40,620 nt of DNA from Chitinispirillales bacterium (GTDB lineage Bacteria; Fibrobacterota; Chitinivibrionia; Chitinivibrionales; Chitinispirillaceae). The translations under genes and the position numbers were made by a program. A model generated the notes under the pieces. It was not told where the DNA came from. It did no database searches and worked only from the letters and a program-made list of their open reading frames with translations. The stretch is taken from the NCBI GenBank assembly GCA_031281225.1, contig JAITFQ010000012.1, forward strand, positions 1 to 40,620, written 5' to 3'. Positions 11,602-16,451 of this stretch are shown here, in pieces (position 1 is the stretch's first letter; every line of letters begins with the position of its first letter).

Positions 11602-11619
11602 CTCAATATTTATACTAGA

Positions 11620-11738
11620 CAGCAGAATTTGCCAAACTGCGCAAGGAAAACAAGGCACTCAAGGAGGCGAACGAGATGTTAAAAAAGCGACGCTCATCTT
11701 CGCAAACGAAAGACCTCGAAGAAATTTTGCCGAAATAA
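11620..11738 (+). pseudogene. IS3-family transposase OrfA remnant
   Basis: The frame ending with TAA at 11736-11738 encodes AEFAKLRKENKALKEANEML, the leucine-zipper end of IS3-type OrfA. At an A6G run (11681-11687) the expected continuation KKATLIFANERP moves to the -1 frame. Either this is the usual slippery site of IS3 elements or an indel. No helix-turn-helix part, no OrfB and no terminal repeats remain. The bases from 11739 to 11960 are T-rich and hold no further gene I can support. Confidence 0.7.
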
Positions 11739-11960
11739 TATTTTTTATTTTTTTTTGCCATTCTCGCCATGCCGGAAATTATATTTGTTATCAAGAAGAG
11801 GCATGGGAGTTGCTAATGGCGGTTTTCTATCCGCCACATTTGGGGCAGGGGTCAGTACTGCGCATTGCCCTATAACCTGCCCTAGACGTCGTATACCTAG
11901 AACGTTAGGCGAAAATTTTAGCCTGAGATATATTACGAATACTATGTTTTGGAGGTTTTT

Positions 11961-12647
11961 TTGAGGTTATCAATAGAGAGTTTTTCAGAGAAATTTAGAA
12001 AAATCAAAGAAATGGGGTTTGTTCCTTCTCAAAGAAAGGGGCCAACAGGCATTGGTTATACCCTTGAGACCCTATTAGGCATTGATGAAAATAATGATGC
12101 TTCACCAGATATTGTGGGGGCTGAATTAAAGGCTCATAGGGCAAATAGTAAAAATTTAATAACACTTTTTACATTTAATAATAAAGCATGGAAAATACCG
12201 CCATTAGAAGCTGTAAAACGTTACGGAAGTCTTGATAGAGATGGTCGGCAAGGGCTTTATTATACAATGTCGTTAAAACCAAATAGCGCGGGACTTTTTC
12301 TTGATGTTCAAAAAGACACTATTGCGGTACGGCATATTTCTGGTACTGTTGTTGTTGAATGGATATTGGAATTATTAGCCAAAAGATTTATACAAAAAAT
12401 CCCTTCATTAATATTTGTAACTGCATTTACAGAATTACGTGATGGTATAGAATATTTTCATTTTCAAAGAGCGCAACTTATGAAAGATACAACATCAGAA
12501 TTATTATGCAATCAATTTAAATCAGAAAATATCTTGGTAGATTTACGTTTACATGATAAAGGGACAATGGCAAGAAATCATGGAACTGGTTTTAGAACTT
12601 ATGAAAATCGCTTACCACAGTTATTTAGATTGGTTTTGGATATATGA
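11961..12647 (+). CDS. MvaI/BcnI-type type II restriction endonuclease
   Basis: A 228-residue protein of the MvaI/BcnI restriction endonuclease family. These enzymes act as monomers and cut CCWGG or CCSGG sites. The N-terminal block GFVPSQRKGPTGIGYTLE and the following LLGIDEN match the family. The catalytic pattern D-x4-E-x-K is visible in SPDIVGAELK (Asp50, Glu55, Lys57). I chose the TTG at 11961 because GGAGG sits 5 bases upstream and the family N-terminus fits; a TTG at 11949 lacks a site. The stop overlaps the methyltransferase ATG by 4 bases. Base composition is clearly more AT-rich than neighbouring genes, which suggests transfer. The target sequence is inferred only from the family. 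Confidence 0.88.
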   Translation: MRLSIESFSEKFRKIKEMGFVPSQRKGPTGIGYTLETLLGIDENNDASPDIVGAELKAHRANSKNLITLFTFNNKAWKIPPLEAVKRYGSLDRDGRQGLYYTMSLKPNSAGLFLDVQKDTIAVRHISGTVVVEWILELLAKRFIQKIPSLIFVTAFTELRDGIEYFHFQRAQLMKDTTSELLCNQFKSENILVDLRLHDKGTMARNHGTGFRTYENRLPQLFRLVLDI

Positions 12648-13489
12648 GCAAGTATAATGTTGTACGTAACACAAAATATGATTATACAGGGCAATCATAT
12701 TCGTCTATTTATCCCAATTTACATCGTTACCCAGCAACAATGATACCTCAAATTGGTATAGATATTTTAAAAGAATTTAATATTTCGTCAGGGAGTATGC
12801 TTGATCCATATTGCGGTTCTGGAACAAGTTTTATATGCGGTTTAGAATGTGGGATTAAAAAAATGTCAGGTTTTGACATTAACCCATTGGCTGTTTTAAT
12901 TGCTAAAGCGAAATTTACAAAAATAAATATAAAAGAAATTGAAAATGAATATCAAAAACTTAGAAATAATGTGTTTGATATAATGAAGAATGAAAAAATT
13001 TTAAAAAAAATAATTATACCAAAAATCACAAATATATATTTTTGGTTTTCTGAAACAGTAGTTAAAAACCTTTCTGTTATTAAATACTGTATAGATGAAT
13101 TAGAAAACGAAAAAATAAAAAATATGTTTCTTGTTCCATTTTCTGAAACTGTTAGAGAGTGTTCATATACACGAAATAATGAATTTAAATTATATCGCAT
13201 GAAACCAGAAGAAATACACAATTTTAATCCAGATGTGTTAAGTTTCTATTTTAAAAAGTTAAACGACGCAATACAATGTTATAAATTATATTATTCACCA
13301 AAATTATTAAATGATACATCTGTTAAAATACACTCAAAACCTTTTCAAAAAGATAAAAATGGTTATGATTTAGTTTTGACAAGCCCTCCTTACGGAGATA
13401 GCAGAACAACCGTTGCTTACGGTCAATTTTCAACATTATCTAATGAGTGGTTAGGGATAAATAATGCTCGTAAAATAGATAGTATGTGA
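12644..13489 (+). CDS. DNA methyltransferase, N-terminal part, ended by an in-frame TGA
   Basis: This 281-residue product carries the cofactor and catalytic motifs of an amino-methyltransferase, probably the partner of the upstream endonuclease. A motif X-like region (HRYPATMIPQ) comes first. Motif I is DPYCGSGT (residues 54-61), and motif IV is TSPPYGDS with SPPY at 247-250, typical of N4-cytosine enzymes. The frame stops at TGA 13487-13489, directly after KIDSM. The next codon is ATG in the same frame, and it continues into sequence that belongs to the same protein family. A single base change (for example TTA to TGA) would explain this. The ATG overlaps the endonuclease stop (ATGA), so translation is coupled. 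AT-rich like its partner. Confidence 0.85.
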   Translation: MSKYNVVRNTKYDYTGQSYSSIYPNLHRYPATMIPQIGIDILKEFNISSGSMLDPYCGSGTSFICGLECGIKKMSGFDINPLAVLIAKAKFTKINIKEIENEYQKLRNNVFDIMKNEKILKKIIIPKITNIYFWFSETVVKNLSVIKYCIDELENEKIKNMFLVPFSETVRECSYTRNNEFKLYRMKPEEIHNFNPDVLSFYFKKLNDAIQCYKLYYSPKLLNDTSVKIHSKPFQKDKNGYDLVLTSPPYGDSRTTVAYGQFSTLSNEWLGINNARKIDSM

Positions 13490-13891
13490 ATGGGTGGTGG
13501 CCGTGTATCAGAAATAATGAAAGATAACTGTGTTAAAGAATCTATAAAAATGATAGAAAACGAAGATAAAAAACGAGCTTTAGAAGTATCGTCATTTTAT
13601 TATGATTTGCAAAAATCAATAAATAATGTTGCGAAATGTATAAATAAAGATGGTACGGTAATATATATTGTGGGAAATAGAACTGTAAAAAATATACCTT
13701 TGCCTACAGATCAATTTATCGCAGAAATATTTGAGAAAAATGGTTTCAAACATTTGGTTACTTATAAACGTGCATTAAGTAATAAAGCAATGCCTAGCAG
13801 AAATTCACCTACTAACATTGCAGGAAAAACCGTGAATACAATGTTATATGAATATATAGTTGTATGTAAAAATGTAGATACACGCAAATAA
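13490..13891 (+). CDS. DNA methyltransferase, C-terminal part, in frame after the TGA
   Basis: A 133-codon frame that begins with ATG immediately after the TGA of the preceding part, with no frame change. It encodes MGGGRVSEIM, then VIYIVGNRTVKNIPLPT and NSPTNIAGKTVNTMLYEY. These look like the C-terminal half of the same methyltransferase rather than a separate protein. It lacks any SAM-binding or catalytic motif of its own. Translation could restart at TGAATG and give two subunits, or the UGA could be read through at low level, or the gene could be dead. The rest of the frame is free of other damage, which suggests a recent or tolerated change. Confidence 0.75.
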   Translation: MGGGRVSEIMKDNCVKESIKMIENEDKKRALEVSSFYYDLQKSINNVAKCINKDGTVIYIVGNRTVKNIPLPTDQFIAEIFEKNGFKHLVTYKRALSNKAMPSRNSPTNIAGKTVNTMLYEYIVVCKNVDTRK

Positions 13892-13925
13892 AAATTTTTA
13901 GGACACACGAGTAGACGGCGTTGAC

Positions 13926-13944
13926 ATACATCGTATACTCACAA
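13926..13944 (-). repeat. 19-bp repeat, partial extra copy of the element motif
   Basis: ATACATCGTATACTCACAA is identical to 14050-14068, 124 bases away in the same orientation. That second site is the edge of the element core at 13961-14064. This indicates an adjacent, mostly deleted copy. Confidence 0.65.
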
Positions 13945-13960
13945 CAAAACAGTCTAAGAC

Positions 13961-14064
13961 TGGCAAATAAAAGTTTTTAACTGTGACGGCAACTTGTTTA
14001 TCTCGGCGTAAGCCGAGGCCGACAATGCTGGATTTTCTAAATACGTGAAATACATCGTATACTC
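13961..14064 (-). repeat. Second copy of the core of the 6.2-kb inverted-end element
   Basis: Inverted relative to 6202-6305, with about 14 mismatches over 104 bases. The long inverted ends of the first copy are not recognisable here. It includes the short palindrome CTCGGCGTAAGCCGAG and would encode a 33-residue peptide on the minus strand beginning MYFTYLE. It lies between the restriction-modification island and argS. Confidence 0.75.
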
Positions 14065-14150
14065 ACAATAAAAAATTTTGATTTCAAAACGTCCATGATA
14101 TATATTTAATGCGGGAAAATTGTTTTTCAAATAACGGAGTATCATTAATT

Positions 14151-15903: not shown

Positions 15904-16173
15904 CTACATGGTTCGGTAAATATTTTTTCTGTTCCCTGTTTCCAGCGCAAGAACAATCAATTTCTCATCCTGAATTTCACAAATAATTCTATAGTTTCCC
16001 GTTCTATAACGCCACTGTCCCTTGCGATTTCCTTTTAATTCTTTCCCAATAACGCGTGGATTGTCTGTACCGTCAATATTATGGTGCAGGTATTTAAGAA
16101 TTTGCTTTGCGGCATTTTCCCCTAATTTTTCCAACTGTTTTTCAAATTTTTTTGTCCATTCGATCCGATACAT
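15904..16173 (-). CDS. RelE/ParE-superfamily toxin
   Basis: An 89-residue basic protein of the RelE type, an mRNA-cleaving or gyrase-inhibiting toxin fold. The N-terminal IEWTKKFEKQLEKL, the central ELKGNRKGQWRYRTGNYRI and the terminal EIQDEKLIVLALETGNRKNI match RelE/YafQ-type toxins. The start ATG at 16173 shares its A with the stop TGA of the antitoxin gene (TGATG), so the pair is translationally coupled. A TTG one codon earlier is less likely. RelE-type ribosome-dependent cleavage is more probable than ParE, but the target cannot be read from sequence. It is convergent with argS. Confidence 0.85.
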   Translation of the reverse strand: MYRIEWTKKFEKQLEKLGENAAKQILKYLHHNIDGTDNPRVIGKELKGNRKGQWRYRTGNYRIICEIQDEKLIVLALETGNRKNIYRTM

Positions 16174-16451
16174 CAAATAACTCCGTATTTTTTGTACAAG
16201 TCTTCAATCGGATAACTCTTGTACCCATCTTTTACATACTCTTCGTATGCCTTATCGGCGATTTTTGCATCGTAAGCATCCTCATGTTCTTCGTCGCAGT
16301 TGTTTTCATATCCAATCGTAAATGGATTTTTTTTTTGCCGGAGCGATTGCACAATAAACATATTTATTGCGGTTTCCAAATCCAAGCCAAGATCGGAAAA
16401 AAATGTCTCTGCCTGTTTTTCCAAATGTTTATCAATATTTATTGTCAGCAT
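16173..16451 (-). CDS. RelB/DinJ-family antitoxin
   Basis: A 92-residue protein with the ribbon-helix-helix N-terminus of RelB/DinJ (LTINIDKHLEKQAETFF, then LGLDLETAINMFIVQSL). The C-terminal half is acidic and probably disordered, the part that usually wraps the toxin. It is the first gene of the pair and its stop overlaps the toxin start by one base. RelB proteins normally repress their own promoter, and a good -10 box lies about 70 bases upstream. Confidence 0.87.
   Translation of the reverse strand: MLTINIDKHLEKQAETFFSDLGLDLETAINMFIVQSLRQKKNPFTIGYENNCDEEHEDAYDAKIADKAYEEYVKDGYKSYPIEDLYKKYGVI

Follow-up and report, generated by a model that had tools for sequence, protein, structure and literature searches.

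An MvaI/BcnI-type restriction-modification operon with one in-frame TGA in its methyltransferase gene

Restriction-modification systems with damaged or divided methylases

Ershova et al. (2012) described 74 full-length restriction endonucleases, 11 of them Type II, that have a corrupted methylase in their neighbourhood (PMC3488263). Some of these corrupted methylases are sequencing errors: two frameshifts in one Methanocaldococcus system were shown to be errors, an error is likely in another system, and resequencing of one Brucella genome showed 109 of its 138 apparently broken genes to be intact (PMC3488263). How a cell survives with a broken methylase has been asked for dozens of catalogued systems. 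The operon described here is of the same kind. As in class ii of that survey, it has a full-length endonuclease, a methylase with a premature stop within 4 kb and complete orthologous systems elsewhere (PMC3488263), with the reservation that the genome carries four other methylases. Its methylase is broken by a difference of one base and is otherwise conserved perfectly. If the stop is real and fixed, it would provide a clean natural test of survival with a nuclease that has lost the protecting methylase to a break.

Two other groups of described systems are close. The nuclease, R, belongs with those of the MvaI (CCWGG) and BcnI (CCSGG) systems, since it falls in family PF15515, keeps the catalytic D, E and K and has a methylase gene next to it; this likeness rests on R and on gene adjacency, with CCWGG/CCSGG as a putative site. 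An intact adjacent cognate methylase would be expected of this type, whereas the methylase here, M, bears a stop and lacks a single open frame. The second group comprises M.AquI and M.EcoHK31I, which are likewise encoded in two pieces (PMC3404938). Those are two-polypeptide C5-methylases, and an M.AquI-type split would be conserved among relatives; the break in M, in contrast, lies one base from an inherited codon, and every homologue read there has leucine and no stop.

The operon and its two genes

The window, by which we mean the whole stretch of 40,620 nucleotides that was analysed, is one contig of a draft metagenome-assembled genome (MAG; 2.57 Mb, 163 contigs, 89% complete). It contains an operon of Type II restriction-modification type, AT-rich (27-33% GC) in a contig of 52.5% GC, with the following features.

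11951-11955, plus strand: GGAGG, likely ribosome-binding site of R as read from the sequence, 5 nt upstream of the TTG start
11961-12647, plus strand: R, MvaI/BcnI-family Type II restriction endonuclease, 228 aa, D50-x4-E55-x-K57 (PF15515 at 2.4e-40, R.MvaI at 1.1e-17, alignment)
12644-12647, plus strand: ATGA overlap of the R stop and the M start, suggesting translational coupling
12644-13489, plus strand: part of M before the stop, 281 aa, with motif I and motif IV TSPPY (PDLC03322 positions 21-300, 4.2e-70)
13487-13489, plus strand: in-frame TGA, a leucine codon in homologues (TTA in the nearest), from frame reading and homologue comparison
13490-13891, plus strand: part of M after the stop, 133 aa, starting at the conserved Met of LMGG (PDLC03322 positions 320-444, 3.5e-37)

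R, whose TTG start is at 11961 and whose end is at 12647, scored 139.4 bits in the PF15515 (MvaI_BcnI) profile search against a cut-off of 25, and it matches the R.MvaI structure 2oa9. Its DIVGAELK aligns to DFHDIEIK of MvaI, so that the catalytic D, E and K are retained, and D50, E55 and K57 are invariant across nine relatives in the R alignment. The R frame contains no stop or frameshift.

The M frame runs from the ATG at 12644 to the TAA at 13891 and is open except for the TGA at 13487-13489, the next codon being ATG. Read through the TGA, M matches the PADLOC profile MTase_II PDLC03322 over positions 21-444 of 446 (2e-109). Since the read-through protein and both of its halves match the same profile, the halves in neighbouring parts of it, the stretch 12644-13891 represents one methyltransferase. 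Motif I (LDPYCGSGTS) and motif IV lie in the N half; the break comes after motif IV and ahead of the C-terminal half. Homologous frames are co-linear across the stop position at 81-85% identity, which places the reading of M far beyond chance. The initial annotation had described a restriction-modification system with an intact D-x4-E-x-K endonuclease frame and a methyltransferase divided by one in-frame TGA with ATG next, and our results agree on each of these points; its coordinates, 12644-13891, cover the M frame and leave R outside.

Judged from the sequence, the operon is most likely an ordinary, horizontally acquired Type II system with one amino-methyltransferase gene overlapped by the nuclease gene. 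The nearest relatives are operons of termite-gut Treponema MAGs, whose full-length M and R are 81-85% and 86-90% identical to those of the window. Three of them (L002, L003 and L004) have the same gene order and ATGA overlap, but their M is an uninterrupted frame with leucine at codon 282, where the window has TGA. One congeneric genome (G003) carries a related pair (M 61%, R 72% identical). No restriction-modification system was found beside the congeners' argS or beside their upstream 1,100-aa gene, as far as the copies were retrieved. The flanking genes are present in congeners and were never found adjacent to each other, that is, no exact empty site was found in the genus. From these data we infer that the operon was acquired horizontally. 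Among viral contigs no relatives were found; phage and plasmid relatives are less than 60% identical and do not help in dating the TGA.

Full-length R is present in the window and in loci L002, L003, L004, L008, L009, L010, L083 and L085, and only the M of the window is broken, with the M of L008 and L009 running off the contig end. Locus L006 has a frameshifted M and no R found nearby, and in L091 both genes are decayed. The short frame at 11602-11739 (EFAKLRKENKALKEANEMLKK...), between the upstream gene and R, we take to resemble the end of an IS3-type transposase OrfA; it has no transposase match in Pfam and gives no more than a clue to the arrival of the operon.

Codon 282 and selection on the methylase

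Codon-by-codon comparison of homologues can tell whether a gene was split in evolution or broken by an accident at one base. All 17 loci that are readable at codon 282 (including one second record of overlapping type and some partial records) have leucine in an L-M-G-G motif and no stop, as has a gammaproteobacterial homologue at 45% identity. The leucine codon is TTA, one base from TGA, in the nearest relatives and CTG, CTT or CTC in some others. Across ten intact M homologues (41-81% identical) 123 columns are invariant, and the window deviates from them at codon 282 only. A stop flagged in relative L083 lies outside the aligned methylase, which reads through cleanly. Because the homologues read there have leucine and no stop, the split of M is not ancestral as far as these sequences go. 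No homologue split at codon 282 was seen among the loci read there, which excludes homologues that are always two proteins, one of two outcomes that the initial annotation had named as able to overturn its view.

The ATG after the TGA encodes the invariant Met of LMGG and is present, with no stop preceding it, in every homologue read there. An evolved restart codon at TGAATG was rejected for this reason; the apparent restart is an accident of inherited sequence, and two subunits by design, one of the options first proposed, find no support.

In order to look for decay after the stop, we counted changes in M that are private to the window relative to L002, L003 and L004. The part before the stop has 4 amino-acid and 15 silent changes, the part after it 2 and 9. 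For the latter part, pairwise dN between window and siblings is much like that among siblings. Full neutrality of the post-stop half over the whole window branch has P = 4e-5, and a simple model speaks, at 0.05, against a lack of constraint on more than about 0.2 of that branch. The model is crude and the counts are small, and the direction is nonetheless clear: the post-stop half gives no sign of relaxed selection or decay, and both halves of M are shown by their substitutions to be constrained. The TGA thus arose very recently, is an artefact or fails to inactivate M. R is likewise shown to be under constraint, with dN/dS of about 0.06-0.09 versus the siblings and 6 amino-acid and 13 silent private changes against the same three references. 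A dead methyltransferase with a live nuclease, as first considered, is thus not shown; perhaps no living cell carries a dead M, or M died only very recently.

Explanations for the stop

The weights that we express in words below are our judgement and were not computed. We consider it probable that the operon is an ordinary one and that its lone nonsense codon reflects a sequence error, a variant of a minority or a very recent mutation. In such an operon M would normally methylate the recognition site and thereby block R on the cell's own DNA; the TGA, one base from the TTA of relatives, would be a consensus error, a minority variant, or a mutation too recent for M to have decayed otherwise, and most cells in the living population would probably make full-length M. 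We infer that M is made and protective. The AT-rich, horizontally acquired insert, the draft 163-contig MAG and the published precedent of corrupted methylases (PMC3488263) support this reading. Of its two parts, an artefact (consensus error) or a minority variant in the metagenome assembly comes by itself close to an even chance. A mutation that is true and very recent, in a cell with a silent R or in a lineage bound to lose R, is a tentative and rather unlikely option. Speaking against an ordinary operon with an error or recent mutation as a whole, the larger window genes show no further evident stop or frameshift, so that the contig is not error-rich, and a true TGA with M working by read-through or as two pieces would give the same sequence picture.

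The ways out listed by the initial annotation, namely restart, read-through, a backup methylase and an inactive nuclease, were all reasonable, and each was weighed as a rival. We regard it as unlikely that a live nuclease is restrained by a methylase arising from leaky UGA read-through or from two self-assembling pieces, such that translation fidelity sets the protection. Taken by itself, read-through would require that a real TGA is decoded in a small share of cases by a near-cognate tRNA, usually that for Trp, and that the resulting full-length M suffices to protect the chromosome from an R of weak expression. Of the stop codons, UGA leaks most in E. coli: reporters give means between a fraction of a percent and several percent, with Trp the residue inserted most often (PMC11126739). 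The C half of M is also still constrained. However, Leu282 is invariant in relatives, so that Trp may not work there, no relative has a stop at this codon, and neither a tRNA with a UCA anticodon (among 34 tRNA hits) nor a tRNA-Sec above the cut-off was seen in the 89% complete MAG. On balance we hold read-through to be improbable. Selenocysteine, a suppressor tRNA and a code change have no support from the same tRNA results; the release factor 2 gene prfB is present in the genome and 17 of the 28 listed window genes terminate in TGA, in line with the earlier view that a code change is unlikely. No tRNA-Trp was recovered among the tRNA hits of this 89% complete MAG, which may thus have an unusual one.

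Termination followed by restart at the adjacent ATG could instead produce both pieces of M, which would then assemble into an active methylase. Coupling requires very short distances (PMC10666635), and no base lies between the stop and the ATG; some C5-methylases act as two polypeptides or complementing fragments (PMC3404938). Against this, the ATG codes for the Met inherited with the LMGG motif, no ribosome-binding site is evident upstream of it, no homologue is split at codon 282, the break lies between motif IV and the C-terminal half, and the precedents are C5 enzymes. An AlphaFold model of the intact methylase of L002 has a pLDDT of 42, too poor for judging the break site. Two-piece assembly seems to us quite improbable.

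Protection of R sites by another methylase of the genome is very unlikely. The candidates are one C5 enzyme and three of N4/N6 type, all with open frames. However, the assembly (89% complete) contains no second relative of M, and three of the four adjoin their own nucleases (the C5-methylase REase PDLC03508, two N4/N6-type enzymes nucleases of the MjaI and EcoO109I families) and the fourth PtuAB-like genes; no evidence of CCNGG-type specificity was seen among them. Locus L038 (G000 contig C82:13500-28500) is a defence island of the same genome with a C5 restriction-modification pair and an N4/N6 methylase beside PtuA- and PtuB-like genes. A lack of sites was rejected as an escape from R. The 370 kb sampled contain 262 CCWGG and 767 CCSGG, or by extrapolation roughly 1,800 and 5,300 genome-wide, so that an unopposed R of this specificity would meet many sites.

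An inactive R, which would make the loss of M costless, is the least probable explanation and highly unlikely: R has a few private changes, among them E52V between catalytic D50 and E55 and P179S where the other eight have Pro, but relatives carry E, D or A at position 52, and MvaI and BcnI have H or G there, so that V is probably tolerated, and the low dN/dS and uninterrupted frame of R speak against inactivity.

Site specificity and neighbouring elements

Site avoidance was rejected as a sign that the window R acts, because congeners that lack R avoid CCWGG to about the same degree. In samples of G000, G001, G003, G004 and G005, observed/expected ratios are 0.42-0.66 for CCWGG, 0.05-0.59 for CTAG and 0.22-0.75 for GGWCC, and this genus-wide avoidance holds with or without an MvaI-type nuclease.

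Two Treponema loci (L084:1175-2736 and L086:740-2736) have a related methylase with the same 4-base overlap but a nuclease of the BsaWI family (PF18643), apparently broken in L084. Joining of this methylase family to an unrelated nuclease through the same overlap suggests that the nuclease partner was swapped in these loci, and the putative CCWGG/CCSGG site of the window system is uncertain because related methylases pair with BsaWI-family nucleases too.

Between M and argS there are two 28-base direct copies, 93% identical, at 13922-13949 and 14046-14073 (ACATCGTATACTCACAA...). Further downstream, at 15904-16451 on the minus strand, lies a gene for a ParE-family toxin (PF05016, 5.4e-15); the gene ahead of it may encode a RelB-like antitoxin, to which it has a weak match.
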